Shown piece by piece: positions 19,296 through 27,036 of a DNA stretch of 44,350 bases. The stretch covers positions 1 through 44,350 of the forward strand of contig JAFTDL010000252.1 of assembly GCA_017454215.1 (NCBI GenBank), read 5' to 3'. The notes beneath the pieces were generated by a model. The model ran no database searches, was not told the origin of the DNA, and worked only from the letters and a program-made list of their open reading frames with translations. The position numbers and the translations under genes were made by a program. Origin of the DNA: Lentisphaeria bacterium (GTDB lineage Bacteria; Verrucomicrobiota; Lentisphaeria; Victivallales; Victivallaceae). Positions within the stretch are counted from its first letter, which is position 1. Every line of letters begins with the position of its first letter.

Positions 19296-19324
19296 AATAT
19301 AGAGCCTGTTGCCCGATAAGTCAA
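19296..19324 (-). promoter_or_regulatory. Internal promoter before the cyclase-like gene
   Basis: Minus strand TTGACT (19324-19319) and TATATT (19301-19296) are exactly 17 bases apart, close to the sigma70 consensus. The -35 overlaps the stop codon of the flavoprotein gene. The leader would be about 28 bases with an AGGAGAGG ribosome site. It lets the five downstream genes be expressed apart from the upstream regulator, GH130 and hydrolase genes. Confidence 0.7.
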
Positions 19325-20694
19325 GAAGAGCTCTCCGATCCGCACGGGAAAAGATCACGGCAGTCAGGAGGAAACGGCGGGACCTTTATGACGGCGCCCT
19401 GTTCGACGAGCCGCTTCTGCAGAGAAGAAACATCCAGCGTGCGCAGTGAACAGCCCTTTGAAAGCGTCATGGCGGCGGCGGTGCCCGCGGCTTCGCCGGT
19501 GATCATGCACCCGGGCACGACACGGATCGAGGACTGCATGGCGCGGTCGGTCGAAATACAGCGTCCGGCCGCGAGCAGATTCTTCGTGTTTTTCGGCAGC
19601 AGCGCCCGGTAGGGAATGCCGTAGTTCTCTCCCGCGGCGTAGGCGACTTCGATGATCTTCTTCTCGACCGCCGCCTGTTTTTCCGCATCGCCGCCGCTTG
19701 CGTGGATGTCCACGGGATAGGCGAAACTGCCGATGTCGTCGTCGAAATGACGGCGGGCAAAATAATCGTCGGAAGTCATTTGGTATTCTCCGGCGATCCG
19801 GCGGGACTCCCTGACGCCCAGCATGTCGGCCGAGAGGGTGAGACCGCTCTTTGCGAATCCCGCCACTTTGTCTCTGAAAAATTCATGGTAGCGCCGCGCC
19901 AGCGCCCGGCCTCTGGTCCACGCTTCGCTGCGTGAAAAAATGTCCAGCACGTCGGTGCCGTAGATGTGTCCGAGGTTGCCCGCGCCGCAGCCCTCGCCGT
20001 TGCGGAAGAAACCCACGAAGTGGTGTTCGTCCACGGGAAGCTCATGGTTCTTTTCGGCTTCGCTCCACTCCCTGCGGCCGATGCCGTTGCACCGGTCGTC
20101 CGGGTAGCTGATGTTGTCGTACATCACGCAGAGCGTCGGAGCCATGACTTTTCCCTCTTCATCGCCGTACTCGAAGGGGACTCCGGCCAGCGCCGCCAGA
20201 TTCGCGTCTCCGGTGCAGTCGATGAAGATCTTTCCCGTAACGGCGAAACCGCCGCAGGGTGAGAAACATCTCAGCGCCGTCACTGTGCCGTTTTCGACCG
20301 CGCAGTCGGTGACGACGGTTTCGTAGAGAACTCTTGCCCCCGCTTCGGCAAGCATCATGTCGGCGGCCCTTTTGACGCTTTCGGGGTGGATGTTCTGCCA
20401 GCGGTAACTGGTTTCGGCAAGTTTCATGTCCGCCGTGATGCGCTCAACGAATTCCCTGCAGATGCCGTTGGCGAGGACGTCTTTGCCGTCGGTCATGCAG
20501 ATGATGCTGGTGAGAAGCCCTCTTGCCGCCATGCCGCCGCAGCAGCCGGACTGTTCGATGAGCAGGGTCTCCGCTCCGTTGCGCGCGGCGGCGACCGCGG
20601 CGGCGATCCCTGCCGTTCCCCCTCCGACGACCACCACGCCGGCCGAAGCCGCCGTGTCCAGAACTCTCGCGGGAAACGATACTTTTTCTTTCAT
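19321..20694 (-). CDS. FAD-dependent oxidoreductase (FAD_oxidored/PF12831-like)
   Basis: This encodes 457 residues. The N-terminal Rossmann motif is VVVVGGGTAGIAAAVAAARNG (dinucleotide Gly run at 24-29), followed by the ADP-ribose acceptor in LLIEQSGCCGGMA. A FIDCTGDANLAALAGVP segment and the C-terminal LLAAGRCISTDRAM..GEAAGTAAAM FAD contact are typical of the FAD_oxidored family common in sugar loci of Lentisphaerae and Bacteroidetes. No export signal is apparent. The reaction is unknown; oxidation of a sugar or sugar alcohol is likely. ATG 20694 has GAGG eight bases upstream and follows the stop of the SGNH/glycosidase-like gene by eight bases. Confidence 0.87.
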   Translation of the reverse strand: MKEKVSFPARVLDTAASAGVVVVGGGTAGIAAAVAAARNGAETLLIEQSGCCGGMAARGLLTSIICMTDGKDVLANGICREFVERITADMKLAETSYRWQNIHPESVKRAADMMLAEAGARVLYETVVTDCAVENGTVTALRCFSPCGGFAVTGKIFIDCTGDANLAALAGVPFEYGDEEGKVMAPTLCVMYDNISYPDDRCNGIGRREWSEAEKNHELPVDEHHFVGFFRNGEGCGAGNLGHIYGTDVLDIFSRSEAWTRGRALARRYHEFFRDKVAGFAKSGLTLSADMLGVRESRRIAGEYQMTSDDYFARRHFDDDIGSFAYPVDIHASGGDAEKQAAVEKKIIEVAYAAGENYGIPYRALLPKNTKNLLAAGRCISTDRAMQSSIRVVPGCMITGEAAGTAAAMTLSKGCSLRTLDVSSLQKRLVEQGAVIKVPPFPPDCRDLFPCGSESSS

Positions 20695-20702
20695 GGAAAA
20701 CC

Positions 20703-23700
20703 TCAATTCTTTTTCGTCAGCGTTATGACGACGGGCACGCGGGCGGGAACTTCGAGAGAGACGGCAAGTCCGCCCTCTCTTTCGAACGCCAGTTTCTCCG
20801 GATACAGGGTCCGGCAATCGTATTCCCCCGCGGGCAGGGACCTCTTCAAATCGGCTTCGGCTTTGACCGGCTTTTCGGAAATGTTGTAAAGCACCAGCGC
20901 GTATGAGCCGTCGGGGGCCTGAAACACCGTGCCGATGACCGCGTCCATCAGAATGTCGAAGTAGCTGGCGCTGTAACTTCTGTGCCATTTGACCCGCAGG
21001 GACTCAGCCTTCTGGACGATCCGGGGAGCCCTGAGCAGCCGGCCGTAAACGAAGTACTTTTTTCCGGCGGCATAGGCCGCGTAACGCTCTTTCGATGTCG
21101 TCCGGACGATCTCATTATTTCCGTAGGTGTAGAGCAGATTGAAGATGTTCCAGCCCGGCGTCACGCCCCAGCACAGGGCCAGCGCGTTTTTCGCCACATA
21201 GCCGAGGGCGTTGTCCCGCTCCGTATCGTGGCGGCTGGGCCAGAGGCCGTGCATCATGGTGTAGTCGCCGTAGACCGTCTGCACCATGGGGATGGCGGTC
21301 ACCCGGCCGCCCTCCAGATAGGCGTTGGTGGTGTTGCAGACGAGATAACCGTCCAGATGGGCGATGTTGCCCTCCCAGAAACTCTCGGCGGTGAAACAGA
21401 AGCCGGGATTGATCCTGCGGGCCCGCTCACGGAGCGTTTCGAGGAGTCTGTGCTGCCCCCTGATGTACCCCGTGCCGCCGCCGGACTCGGACGAACAGGC
21501 GGGCGTGAAGTTGAGATACGTGCCGCCGTGATTGCCGGAGTCGAGATAGGCGGCGTCGAATCCGGTTTCCGCCATCTTGACGATATTGTCGCCGAGGGCC
21601 TTCGTCCAGGCCTCTCCCGGGTAGGCGATGAGGTCCTGCACCGGATTTTTATAGGGCCATTTGATGAACTGCCCGTAATAGTTGCGGACGAGATTCTTTT
21701 TGGCAAGTTCGGGATCTCTTCTGAAACTGGGACTGCCGTCGCTCCAGCCGGTGCACTGGATATATCCCATGATCCGGACCTGATTATCCTTGAGGGACTT
21801 GAGAACAGTCCTGTCGGCGTCGTCGATGGGAAAACGGTCCGGGTCGCCGAAGTGGAAGCTCCAGTCGCGGTTCCGCCCCCAGTAGGTGAGGAACACGCCC
21901 AGCGGGTACTGGGGAAAGTCCCTGCGGAAGCGGCGCATCATGGGTTCCTGACTGTCGTGCTTTTTTCCGACGTACTGCCCCCACTCGACGATGTCCTTGA
22001 ACCACTGCGGCAGATTTTTGCGGACACTCGTCCTGCCCTCTTTGCACCAGAACTGCGCGGTCGCCCAGCCGCGGTAGATCTGACAGCCGTCGTACCAGTC
22101 GCCGTCGAAAGTCCGGACCACCGCGGGATAGGGTATCTTCCAGCTTTGGGGCACTTCGCGCATGTTGTTGGGAACGTTGCGCAGGGTCCACGAAACGCCC
22201 TCTTTTCTGCCTGAGGCGATCTCCCAGCGCTTGATGTACTGCTCCGGATCGTGGACGCCCAGATAGAGGCCGTCGGTCCCGTTGTAAAGCACGTCCATAT
22301 GCATGCTGTGCCCGGAACGGTTGGGCTGGCAGATGCGGTCCTTCCTGAAAAGCCCCTTCTCCACGGGGTTGCGGATCAGCCTGCCGTTGAAAAACGGCGT
22401 CGCAAGGTAATCGTCTCCGGGCCGCCCGTTGATGCCGCCGAGACCGCCGATGACGGGATAATCGAAGTAGAACACGGTGTATTTTTTCGACCGGTTGTCG
22501 AAACTTGCGGTGAAGACGAAGGACTTGCCGTCGCCGGAGAGTTTTATCTGCACCCGGACGTCGAGCACGCCCTTTTCGCCGCCGACGTCAAGATTTTTCC
22601 ACGTCATGACGACCGTTTTCGAATCGGCTTTCAGCGCCGTTTCGGCGTGGGAAAAATCCAGGGCGGCGATCTTCAGGTCGGCGGCGGCATCGTCGGAACC
22701 GCCCCCCCCGTTGTCATCCCGTTCGGGGTCGATCGAAAGCGGCGCAACTTCCGGCAGTCTGAGGCCGGAAATGTCGATTTTTTTGAACGTCATGCTCCAG
22801 AGGGAACGGCGGGGCTCGAAATTGATGAACTCCGTTTTTCCGTCTTTGACGATGCCTGCAACGCCCCCGCCCTGCCGCGGATGGAGAAACTTCATTTCCG
22901 ACGTTCCGCCTTTGAGACTTGCGGACGCCGCGTCCTTTTTCCCGAGCGCGGGCACGATGACGAAGTCGTCGAAATCGGCGGTCCCGCCCTTCGTGCGGAT
23001 CACCAGCATGAGATTGCGGACTTGCGCGGGAACGTTGAAGGGGATCTCGTATGTCTTCCACGCGCCGCCCAAAACGAACCACTCCTTGCGGAGGGGGACG
23101 AAAGAGGGCTTGACGCCGGTCATTGAAACGGCGGCGGAAAAACTCCCCCCGCCCCTGGCGCGCAGACGCAGTATCCAGTCTCCCTGCTGCGGAACGATGC
23201 TTCCCGTACGGCAGAAGGAGGTCCCTGTCGTGGAGATCCGCAGAAATTTATTGCCCGCTTCGGCGCGGACTTCGGCCTTTCCCGCCTTGGCGCTGTTGGC
23301 CCACTCCAGCGCCATCGCGCCGGGCCGGTCGTCCTCGAAGGAGACGTTGGCGATGGTCATGGGCCGGGGCTTCACATAGGGGGCGGGCTGTTTTTCGGTG
23401 CTCAGTCCGAGGTTGAAATTCACCAGCGTCTTGAGCCAGGCGGGATAGGTCTCGCCCGTCACCGTGCCCGCGCCCGAAAGGGCGGCGCCGTAAGTGATGC
23501 TGTCTCCGAGGCAGAGGATCCGGTCGTTGTCCCGGACTTTTCCTTCGAGGACCCGCGCCACGGTTTCGGCCAGCAGTTTCGCCCCTTCGGAAGTGAGGTG
23601 CAGACCGTCCTTCACGCCGGAGTTGGCCGCGTTGCGGATCAGGCTCGCCCGGTCGCCCGAAGCGCCGCCTTTTCCCATCACTGCGGCGTGAAAATCGTTG

Positions 23701-24113
23701 AGGATGATGCCGTTCCGCGCCGCAACCTCCGCGACGGCTTTGTTGTATTTTGCGATCCTCCGCGACGGCGGCAGACCGTCGGGGTACTTGTGCCGGGCGT
23801 CAATATAGCTGTCGATGCAGGGATTGCACGTGTTGAGCACGATGACGCGCACGCCGCTTTTGCGGGCCAGCCGGATCATTTTGCCGAAATTGGCCTTGAA
23901 CTCCTTTTCCGGAACCAGCGCACGGGAATTCACCGCGTCATTGGCGCCGTACCCGATGACGAGGACCGAGGGTTCGTACTGTTTGAGAAGCGCGTCTATG
24001 CGTTTGACGCCGTCGGCCGTGCTGTGGCCGCCGATGCCCGCGTTGAAGACTTGGACCCGGGCGCTCAGAAGCAGCGGGACACAAAGGAGCCATGCGAAAA
24101 AAAGTTTAGCCAT
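20703..24113 (-). CDS. Secreted multidomain enzyme: circularly permuted SGNH hydrolase + carbohydrate-binding + glycosidase-like domain
   Basis: This encodes 1136 residues with a signal peptide (about 1-18). Residues 19-190 have SGNH blocks II, III and V in order (NAGIGGHST 24-32, GYGANDA 54-60, DGLHLTSEG 169-177), but the Ser block (LGDSITYG, 202-209), normally first, comes after them, so the domain appears circularly permuted. Residues about 250-390 resemble a beta-sandwich binding module (FLRIST, WILRLRARGGG, DFDDFVIVP). Residues about 410-1130 resemble the large glycosidase-like DUF6259-type region: FLTYWGRNRDWSFHFGDPD, MGYIQCTGW, DAAYLDSGNHGG, FTAESFWEG. Probably an esterase plus glycosidase acting outside the cytoplasm. 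It follows the second prepilin-like gene by 16 bases. Confidence 0.75.
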   Translation of the reverse strand: MAKLFFAWLLCVPLLLSARVQVFNAGIGGHSTADGVKRIDALLKQYEPSVLVIGYGANDAVNSRALVPEKEFKANFGKMIRLARKSGVRVIVLNTCNPCIDSYIDARHKYPDGLPPSRRIAKYNKAVAEVAARNGIILNDFHAAVMGKGGASGDRASLIRNAANSGVKDGLHLTSEGAKLLAETVARVLEGKVRDNDRILCLGDSITYGAALSGAGTVTGETYPAWLKTLVNFNLGLSTEKQPAPYVKPRPMTIANVSFEDDRPGAMALEWANSAKAGKAEVRAEAGNKFLRISTTGTSFCRTGSIVPQQGDWILRLRARGGGSFSAAVSMTGVKPSFVPLRKEWFVLGGAWKTYEIPFNVPAQVRNLMLVIRTKGGTADFDDFVIVPALGKKDAASASLKGGTSEMKFLHPRQGGGVAGIVKDGKTEFINFEPRRSLWSMTFKKIDISGLRLPEVAPLSIDPERDDNGGGGSDDAAADLKIAALDFSHAETALKADSKTVVMTWKNLDVGGEKGVLDVRVQIKLSGDGKSFVFTASFDNRSKKYTVFYFDYPVIGGLGGINGRPGDDYLATPFFNGRLIRNPVEKGLFRKDRICQPNRSGHSMHMDVLYNGTDGLYLGVHDPEQYIKRWEIASGRKEGVSWTLRNVPNNMREVPQSWKIPYPAVVRTFDGDWYDGCQIYRGWATAQFWCKEGRTSVRKNLPQWFKDIVEWGQYVGKKHDSQEPMMRRFRRDFPQYPLGVFLTYWGRNRDWSFHFGDPDRFPIDDADRTVLKSLKDNQVRIMGYIQCTGWSDGSPSFRRDPELAKKNLVRNYYGQFIKWPYKNPVQDLIAYPGEAWTKALGDNIVKMAETGFDAAYLDSGNHGGTYLNFTPACSSESGGGTGYIRGQHRLLETLRERARRINPGFCFTAESFWEGNIAHLDGYLVCNTTNAYLEGGRVTAIPMVQTVYGDYTMMHGLWPSRHDTERDNALGYVAKNALALCWGVTPGWNIFNLLYTYGNNEIVRTTSKERYAAYAAGKKYFVYGRLLRAPRIVQKAESLRVKWHRSYSASYFDILMDAVIGTVFQAPDGSYALVLYNISEKPVKAEADLKRSLPAGEYDCRTLYPEKLAFEREGGLAVSLEVPARVPVVITLTKKN

Positions 24114-24129: not shown

Positions 24130-24828
24130 TCACTTGTTTTCGGGCCAGATCATTTCTTCTTTGACGGTGAATTTATCCTTGAGGCCGCCGGCCGTGGCGG
24201 CCCGTGCGCTGCCGTCGGCGCACCAGACATTGGCCCGCAAGGCGTGCCGGGGATTGACGAGGTACTTGTTGCCGTATTTTCCGTTGCCCAGCAGAGGAAC
24301 GTTGCTCACCTGGATGCCGTGATTCGCGTTGCCGGGGCGGTACAGGGCGCTGTCGCAGAGCATGATGAACGCCGGCGGCGAAAAGCTGTATTCGTTCCCG
24401 TCGGGATCCGCGTCCTTGAAACTGCCGCCGACACGGTAGGCGAATTTTTCGTCCACCAGCGCGTCCGCGTTCTGCCGGGAGCGGATGCCGAAAGTGTAGT
24501 TCTGGTCATAAAGCGCCGGATTGACGGCGGGACACTTCGTCACGCCGATGGTGCTGTTGACGCTCTTGTTGGTCGAGATGGTCACGAATCCCGCCCGGGC
24601 GAGCTGGTAGCTCCAGTTGTAGACGCCCGACTTCAGGATCGGGAAGTAATCCCGGTTGCTGTCGGCGTACTGCTGCAGATAGTGGCCCGAAGACTTGATG
24701 TTGTTCATGCACGACGCGGCCTTGGCGCGCTCCTTGGCTCCGTTCAGCGCGGGCATGAGCATGGCGGCCAGGATCGCGATGATGGCGATGACGACTAAAA
24801 GTTCGATGAGTGTGAAATTTCTTTTCAT
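24130..24828 (-). CDS. Prepilin-like protein (N-terminal cleavage/methylation domain), second copy
   Basis: This encodes 232 residues. After a four-residue leader (MKRN) comes [19 protein letters not shown], the pilin helix with Glu at position +5. The residue before the Phe is Asn, not Gly. The globular part has scattered cysteines and a C-terminal [17 protein letters not shown] motif typical of these pseudopilins. A strong GGAGG site precedes ATG 24828. It lies between the GH130 gene (55 bases upstream) and the 1136-aa enzyme (16 bases downstream), repeating the prepilin-then-large-hydrolase order at 8410-9189. It is likely an envelope or secretion-system component tied to glycan use; its function is unknown. 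Confidence 0.88.
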
Positions 24829-24883
24829 TTTTCCTCCGGCAGTTTGATGTTTTCCGTTCGCAATACAGGACTTGGCATGAAAT

Positions 24884-25948
24884 TTACCGTTTTTCGGGAA
24901 ACCGTTTGACGAAGTCCAGCGCTTCCCGCAGCGAGAATGTCGCAAGACCGATATGGATGTCGCCGCAGCCGTAGTACATCATGACTTCGTCGCCGACCGC
25001 CACGTTGGCGCAGGGGAACACGCAGTACAGTCCGCGGCCGTTGTTCTCGTAGGGCATGTCGGGAGAGAAGACCGGTTCCGGCGTGCGGGCAATGACCTTG
25101 CGCGGATCTTCGCGGTCCAGCAGCGCCAGACCGATCCGGTAGACATCCTGACGGTCCACGCCGTGATAGGTCATGAGCCAGCCGTCGTCGGTGGGGATCG
25201 GCACGCCGGAGCCGCCGACTTTGAGCTCTTCCCACTTCTGCCGGGGAGCCAGCAGCAGGACTTCGTCCATGATGTCCCTGCCGTCGACCATGTCCCACGG
25301 CATTTCCCGGCGGTTGGTACTCCAGAAGTCAAGTCTGTCGGAGAAGGCCAGCCAGACGCAGCCGGGGTGATAGTGCAGCGGCAGCATCCACGGGACGAAG
25401 GCCGTGGGCCGGTGGAGCATGGCATATTTGCCGTTGATCTTCTCGGGAAACAGCGCCACGTTGGCGTCGCAGATGTGTTCGCTGGTGATGGGCCCCAGCT
25501 TTTCAACCGTTTTGAAGTCATCGGTGACGGCCAGTCCGACCCGGCGGTAATTGTCGGTCCACACGGGATTCGTGTTGCCTCCGGGCCCCAGGCGGCGGAT
25601 GCCCGCGGCGTAGTCGAGGCCGTTGAAGGAACGCCCGGCGTAGGCGATGTAATACCGGCCCTCCAGATATGTGACCCGGGCGTCCTCGCATCCGGCGTGA
25701 TCGAAGTCGGAGGGATCGTCGGACGGCGCAAGCCAGGGCCCTTCCTGCTCGGTGAAATGAAACCCGTCGCGGCTTTCGGCATAACCGAGGCGGATGACAC
25801 CGTCCCGGGGCCTCGGATCGGCGGTGAAGACCATGTGGAATTTTGCCCCGTCCCAGACAACGCCGGGATTGCGGGCGGTCCCCCGCCACCGGACGCCGGG
25901 GCGCGGACCCATGATGGGATTTCCCGAATACCTTTTGATTTCGAACAT
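24884..25948 (-). CDS. GH130-family glycoside phosphorylase/hydrolase (mannoside-active type)
   Basis: This encodes 354 residues, the usual GH130 length, as a five-bladed beta-propeller. Motifs: [12 protein letters not shown] at the N-terminus, [19 protein letters not shown], and [20 protein letters not shown], where Asp89 fits the catalytic proton donor. Then come [32 protein letters not shown] and [17 protein letters not shown]. Most characterised GH130 enzymes phosphorolyse beta-mannosides to mannose 1-phosphate; some are hydrolases. No signal peptide, so it acts in the cytosol on imported oligosaccharide. ATG 25948 has AAAGGTG upstream and follows the regulator gene by 11 bases, so the enzyme is probably under that regulator. 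Confidence 0.9.
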
Positions 25949-25959
25949 TTGCGGCACCT

Positions 25960-27036
25960 TTATTTTCCTTTTCTCTCGACCAGTTCGGACCGAAGTTTTA
26001 TGACGCGCTCCGGACTTTCCCCGTCGGAAGAGAGGAGCCGGAGAGACTCGATGACCATCTGCGAATAGGGGACCTGCATCGTGTCGAAGCCCCATTGTTC
26101 GGAAAAGTGCGGATAGAGATTGTCGTACCCCGCCACGGCGACGCCCGTGACCTTCTCCGCCTCGAGGGCGCGGCAGACGCCCACGGCGAGAAGATCGTTG
26201 ACGCAGAACACCGCCTGCGGGCGGCGGCCCGACCGCAGCAGACGGGTCATGGCGAGAAAAGCCCACTCTTCCTGTTTGAAGCGGTCCCGCCGGAGCACAT
26301 CCTTTGCTTCGACGGGAACGGAATACTCCCGCAGCGCCGCCAGAGCGCCGCGGAGCCGGTCGCAATAAGTACGGTCCCCGGGGTCGAGATCGACGTTGAA
26401 GATAACGAAATCATTGCATTGCAATGAAATGAGATGCTCGATCATCCGGTAGGCTCCGCGATAGCCGTCGTCAACGACGGCGGTCATATTGGGGGGAAGA
26501 TCGTTGATTTTTTCCATGACGTAATTGACGAAGAAAAACCTTTTTTCGGGGAATTTCCGCGCCAGCTCCACGGCGGCATCGAACTTGCCGCTGTCGAGGA
26601 CGAGGACGCCTTTGAAATCGAATTCCCGCGACCGATCGTAACGGCGGATGACTTCTTCGGGGGACCCGGAAACGAGCACGGGCGTGATGCCGAATCTGCC
26701 GCAGCCCTGCAGAATGCCGCAGTAGAAAACGCTTGACAGCGGATAGTCGAAGGGCGTTTTCTCGCTGTATTCCGTCCAGACCGCACAGACGGCGTGCCTG
26801 ACCAGATTTTCCGGACCGCCGACGAAAGTTCCCTTTTTGGGACGCCTGAAACAGACCCCGTCCTTGACCAGCTCCTGAACGGCGAGGTACGCCGTCCTGA
26901 CGCTGATCCCCGCGCTGTCGGCGATGACATTGACCGCGGGCAGCGGCGTGTTCTCCGGATACTTGCCGCTCTTTATATCCGCCAGGATCTCGTTTTTCAA
27001 CCGCATGTAAACCGGCAATTTTGCGCCCGGCAGCAT
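25960..27036 (-). CDS. GntR-type DNA-binding domain fused to LacI-type sugar sensor
   Basis: This encodes 358 residues. Residues 1-75 are a GntR winged helix (YMRLKNEILADIKSGKYPEN, PLPAVNVIADSAGISVRTAY, KGTFVGG). Residues about 80-355 are a periplasmic-binding-protein-like LacI/GalR sensor (GVLVLDSGKFDAAVELARKF, VVDDGYRGAYRMIEHL, AVFCVNDLLAVGVCRALEAEKV, VAVAGYDNLYPHFSE). This AraR-like layout usually makes repressors released by a sugar. The gene heads the GH130 / prepilin / SGNH locus with its own strong promoter, and its start region carries two 10-bp direct repeats that may be autoregulatory sites. AGGG lies about eight bases before ATG 27036. Confidence 0.9.
   Translation of the reverse strand: MLPGAKLPVYMRLKNEILADIKSGKYPENTPLPAVNVIADSAGISVRTAYLAVQELVKDGVCFRRPKKGTFVGGPENLVRHAVCAVWTEYSEKTPFDYPLSSVFYCGILQGCGRFGITPVLVSGSPEEVIRRYDRSREFDFKGVLVLDSGKFDAAVELARKFPEKRFFFVNYVMEKINDLPPNMTAVVDDGYRGAYRMIEHLISLQCNDFVIFNVDLDPGDRTYCDRLRGALAALREYSVPVEAKDVLRRDRFKQEEWAFLAMTRLLRSGRRPQAVFCVNDLLAVGVCRALEAEKVTGVAVAGYDNLYPHFSEQWGFDTMQVPYSQMVIESLRLLSSDGESPERVIKLRSELVERKGK

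Follow-up and report, generated by a model that had tools for sequence, protein, structure and literature searches.

Can an SGNH hydrolase domain be complete when the block that carries its nucleophile stands last? The question is raised by an ORF at 20703..24113 (minus strand) of the window, the whole 44,350-nucleotide stretch of Lentisphaeria DNA that was analysed. By its translation and Pfam matches, the ORF encodes a predicted secreted multidomain protein of 1136 aa with the architecture permuted SGNH, CBM-like domain, DUF6259 and C-terminal beta domain. A putative signal peptide, read from the sequence (residues 1–18, MAKLFFAWLLCVPLLLSA; 24060..24113, minus strand), leads directly into block II, and blocks III, V and, last of all, I follow. 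The initial annotation had described this order, and the translation of the ORF confirms it at the coordinates given below. Residues 19–230, which correspond exactly to window positions 24059–23424 (minus strand), very probably form one complete and active SGNH esterase domain that is circularly permuted between blocks I and II.

Block order and conservation across the family

The blocks, all on the minus strand, were placed with an alignment of 19 family members in which the Gly, Asn, Asp, His and Ser are invariant. Block II (NAGIGGHST, residues 24–32; 24018..24044) is now N-terminal and carries the oxyanion-hole Gly. It is followed by block III (GYGANDA, residues 54–60; 23934..23954) with the oxyanion-hole Asn58 and by block V (DGLHLTSEG, residues 169–177; 23583..23609) with the predicted catalytic Asp169 and His172, both blocks being invariant in the alignment. 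Block I (LGDSITYG, residues 202–209; 23487..23510), with the predicted nucleophile Ser205, lies at the C-terminal end, where the alignment agrees with a strand in the AlphaFold2 model. The segment TYPAWLKTL (residues 222–230; 23424..23450), with Y, P and L invariant in the alignment and a helix at model residues 206–217, closes the permuted domain. Thus the SGNH superfamily residues Ser (I), Gly (II), Asn (III) and Asp-x-x-His (V) are all present in the window protein; the native chain departs from the canonical order I-II-III-V by the displaced block I, which is the permutation itself.

An assembly artefact was ruled out by the same order in the independently assembled genomes L033–L035. A wrong start codon was likewise ruled out, as independent genomes share this start and lack a block I ahead of it; in the window the open frame reaches only 12 codons beyond the ATG, and block I is absent there.

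The order is not peculiar to the window protein. Among 78 genomes of the same family, many colinear matches extend to the end of block I. Among 388 sampled genomes of the phylum, the permuted domain occurs in at least 39, from nine families (counted from the result table). In the latter set permuted matches score about 145 bits or more and end near profile position 215, and linear SGNH matches score at most 117 bits and end near position 175; the exception to this gap is a degenerate permuted member (L031/G032, 88.8 bits). Stand-alone permuted proteins of 213–260 aa, such as that of L006 with 213 aa, consist of the domain alone, with the C-terminus just past block I. Fusions are found in both orientations, with the domain N-terminal as in the window protein or C-terminal, as in L089, where it follows NPCBM and GH36 domains. 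Three phage contigs also carry it, in or near tail-module genes (L066:2962–3705, L067:3185–4642, L074:3209–4651); in the last two it is the C-terminal part of proteins of 481–486 aa, and neighbouring genes in all three resemble, by sequence reading, endolysin, lysozyme or baseplate genes. A fourth viral contig, L069, has an apparently shortened form. No permuted match was seen in the INPHARED phages or the PLSDB plasmids. The permuted order is therefore that of a conserved family across the phylum.

The catalytic positions are retained throughout this family. Ser and DxxH are each kept in 46 of 48 members, GxND and GxxG each in 45, and in 44 of 45 members the catalytic His lies 33 residues before Ser. 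Purifying selection acts on block I, whose dN/dS is 0.16 when the window is compared with L033 and 0.03 when it is compared with L034 (0.27 and 0.18, respectively, for the remainder of the domain); L035 was left out, its reading being offset by one residue. The Ser, Asp and His motifs are lost from the permuted ORF of L031 (752 aa) and from a minus-strand ORF of L091 (1121 aa); judged by these losses, both are probably pseudo-enzymes, so some family members are probably not enzymes. A minus-strand ORF of L087 (649 aa) has an N-terminal part resembling a LacI-type sugar-binding regulator and, at its C-terminal end, a degenerate SGNH-like domain of the permuted type.

Profile matches, predicted fold and alternative readings

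The initial annotation had proposed that joining residues 199–230 in front of residues 19–190 would rebuild a normal domain, and that the rearranged sequence be searched against SGNH profiles. The native protein matches Pfam Lipase_GDSL_2 with 72.7 bits in two stretches, the best beginning at profile position 28. Placing block I first raises this score to 86.1 bits in one full-length match (profile 1–178 of 178), and the Lipase_GDSL score from 53.3 to 67.6 bits. In a control in which the letters of the moved block I were reversed, the Lipase_GDSL_2 score falls to 63.2 bits. The same rearrangement raises the scores of four diverse relatives by 10.8–15.0 bits. The Pfam scores lie above the cut-off, hence the homology to SGNH enzymes, and the proposed rejoining does restore a full-length profile match.

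Structure prediction and superposition on SGNH enzymes, also proposed at the outset, gave a consistent picture. AlphaFold2, run on the permuted domain as a monomer with an eight-sequence alignment, returned a confident single domain (pLDDT 87.5, pTM 0.88) with the alpha/beta/alpha fold and five-strand sheet of SGNH proteins. Block I contributes one of the five strands (model residues 181–186, protein residues 198–203); model residues 196–202 have pLDDT below 50. Superposition on canonical SGNH enzymes covers model residues 1 to ~177 and begins at beta2 of those enzymes, with Z of 12–17 overall (3mil: Z 17.0, rmsd 2.8 over 174 residues; 1yzf: Z 16.4, rmsd 2.2 over 158). The canonical SGNH sheet has the order 2-1-3-4-5. 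From the strand assignment and this order we infer that block I would dock as beta1, beside the strand at model residues 4–7, because beta1 is the sole neighbour there in the canonical order. PDB sequence search, Foldseek and VIA-align revealed no solved structure with this topology, though they may have missed one; the best Foldseek TM normalised by query was 0.57 among the matches shown, VIA-align matches mostly align only from beta2 onward, and a viral fold library gave partial matches only.

In the canonical chain, beta1 with the Ser block comes first, helix A and then beta2, which bears block II, follow, and the chain closes with a C-terminal helix behind block V. The permuted chain would start anew at beta2, and its old C-terminal helix would be joined to beta1 through a short linker of constant length, making the Ser strand and its helix the last elements of the domain. 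Such a fold would rebuild the usual active site from Ser205 (block I) and Asp169 and His172 (block V), and the oxyanion hole from the Gly of block II and Asn58 of block III.

The main competing explanation, already raised in the initial annotation, is that of two incomplete, decayed SGNH domains, the first without block I and the second consisting of block I only, that do not form an active site together. Such an order would arise in one protein from a tandem duplication that lost sequence at either end, and Pfam indeed reports two stretches in the native chain. Against this, nine families conserve the order, which also holds in stand-alone proteins that stop after block I, and in 34 of the 48 distinct members the protein ends at most 12 residues from block I without a second copy. 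The constant 33-residue spacing, the purifying selection on block I and the confident single-domain model also argue against decay, and we regard two decayed domains as extremely improbable.

A single domain could still be assembled between chains, the C-terminal block I completing the active site of a neighbouring molecule in a domain-swapped dimer. Swapping is easy at a chain end, where block I lies, and the modelling covered monomers only. The linker from the helix after block V (model residues 158–172) to the strand at 181–186 is, however, short and of fixed length, and the monomer is predicted with a pTM of 0.88, which makes a swapped dimer very unlikely. Somewhat less remote, though still unlikely, is a non-hydrolytic role of the permuted fold, in acyl transfer or in binding. 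AlgX, PatB1 and WssI, which are known to be permuted, function as O-acetyltransferases, and the triad is lost in some family members; yet the window protein, unlike AlgJ and AlgX, keeps the full canonical GDS, GxND and DxxH motifs, and its fusion to a glycosidase-like region with a GH130 gene nearby is as expected for a degradation locus. Homologues, spacing, selection, profile scores and the AlphaFold2 model favour a single permuted SGNH domain.

Known SGNH proteins and the origin of the permutation

Canonical SGNH/GDSL esterases (PF13472: 3p94, 4iyj, 1yzf, 3mil and the acetylxylan esterase Axe2) share with the window protein the catalytic residues and blocks, and the fold from beta2 on; the highest PDB sequence similarity of the permuted domain is to 3p94 (97 bits). 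They differ in that their block I is N-terminal, whereas that of the window protein is C-terminal. The statement in the initial annotation that permuted SGNH domains are undescribed is wrong in general, since circular permutation is known in the SGNH proteins AlgX, AlgJ, BcPatB1 (DHHW) and WssI, with the order H-S-G-N or variants of it. Like the domain studied here they are permuted, and they act on polysaccharide acetyl groups. However, they are acetyltransferases, are cut before block V and have altered motifs (in AlgJ/AlgX, GTSYS, a Tyr in block III and DxH), whereas the window protein has the order G-N-H-S, a cut after block I and canonical motifs. Its block order therefore does not place it with AlgX/AlgJ/DHHW, and the window protein gave no match to any AlgX-type Pfam family at E up to 1, with distant kinship still possible. 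An SGNH protein of order G-N-H-S was not found in the PDB or in the searched literature, which mostly excluded subscription papers. Overall, permutation within SGNH proteins is known, and the G-N-H-S cut with canonical motifs was not found described.

In the linear cousins from the phylum, block I and YP-x-x-L lead into block II without interruption; in the close cousin L116, for example, KVVCFGDSITKRGYPDELATLLG is followed directly by VAVVNAGVGG. Since block I runs straight into block II in these proteins, the cut point can be placed just before beta2. When 48 permuted and 27 linear domains, all brought into canonical order, were placed in one tree, a single branch set the permuted ones apart (82/88; 80% of bootstrap trees), a topology compatible with a single origin. 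The initial annotation had suggested tandem duplication with trimming of both ends. This route is plausible, but an I-II-III-V-I intermediate with block I on both sides was not found among the 48 permuted and 27 linear proteins, and duplication followed by trimming therefore remains a guess. A regular-expression match in L067 (TKNSGDSKLDL) was considered as a second block I and rejected, as it does not resemble an SGNH block I. The evidence leaves evenly balanced a wider scenario in which one ancient permutation would have founded a separate G-N-H-S lineage, a new glycan esterase family that spread through the phylum and into phages. In that scenario the nucleophile strand at the chain end would give a compact domain that serves on its own or joined to glycosidases through either terminus.

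Associated domains, neighbouring genes and predicted role

Behind the permuted domain, a CBM_4_9-like beta domain (about residues 262–390; 22944..23330, minus strand) is assigned by the position of Pfam CBM_4_9 in the relative L137, where it scores between the permuted domain and DUF6259, and by predicted beta structure with pLDDT ~80. AlphaFold2 of residues 245–1136 was poor (pLDDT 44), and the beta region alone was used. DUF6259 (PF19773; residues 659–956; 21246..22139, minus strand) scores 113.1 bits against a gathering cut-off of 28.7 and also follows the permuted domain in five relatives (L033, L137, L139, L141, L142). A PDB sequence search with the glycosidase-like part of the window protein gave no match. 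A weak Glyco_hydro_30C-like C-terminal beta domain (residues 1040–1087; 20853..20996, minus strand) scores 16.8 bits, below the cut-off, and 23.0 bits, above it, in the relative L139.

An FAD_oxidored gene (PF12831, 363 bits; 19321..20988, minus strand) adjoins the permuted gene, and a GH130 gene (mannoside phosphorylase family, 160 bits; 24884..26365, minus strand) lies upstream. By raw counts without a background rate, FAD_oxidored is present at permuted loci in about 12 genomes and GH130 in about 10, mostly within 1.5-kb flanks. FAD_oxidored recurs beside permuted genes in L006/L145, L020 and L033–L035, including beside a stand-alone form, and this recurrence suggests a shared pathway. The window also has a gene for a GntR-type regulator with a sugar-binding (LacI-like) domain (25960..27036, minus strand). 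A prepilin-like (N_methyl) gene lies directly upstream of the permuted gene both in the window (24130–24945) and in L035 (67–783).

The protein is probably a secreted serine esterase acting as a glycan deacetylase. The esterase would strip acyl, probably acetyl, groups from a glycan that the attached CBM-like domain would bind and the DUF6259 domain, probably a glycosidase, would cleave. The GH130 and FAD-oxidoreductase neighbours suggest a glycan-use locus. Gut mannan loci combine GH130 with acetyl esterases (CE2/CE17 in Roseburia, BcCE7/BcCE25 in Bacteroides), so an acetylated mannose-containing polysaccharide is, by analogy, a reasonable candidate substrate and perhaps that of this locus. 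Those enzymes resemble the proposal made here as esterases acting with GH130 phosphorylases in gut bacteria; the passages on them describe no permutation, and the likeness lies in the GH130 linkage by analogy only.

Annotation of SGNH enzymes, which belong to the most common esterases, assumes that block I comes first. In a conserved lineage with the Ser block last, the Pfam match starts at profile position 28–36, so that its members can be mistaken for truncated GDSL lipases or inactive enzymes. Only one natural cut point was found described for the superfamily; the family adds another, and natural pairs of linear (L088/L116) and permuted domains offer material for studying how the fold tolerates permutation. 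The family also draws attention to glycan esterases of gut bacteria and phage tails that await characterisation.
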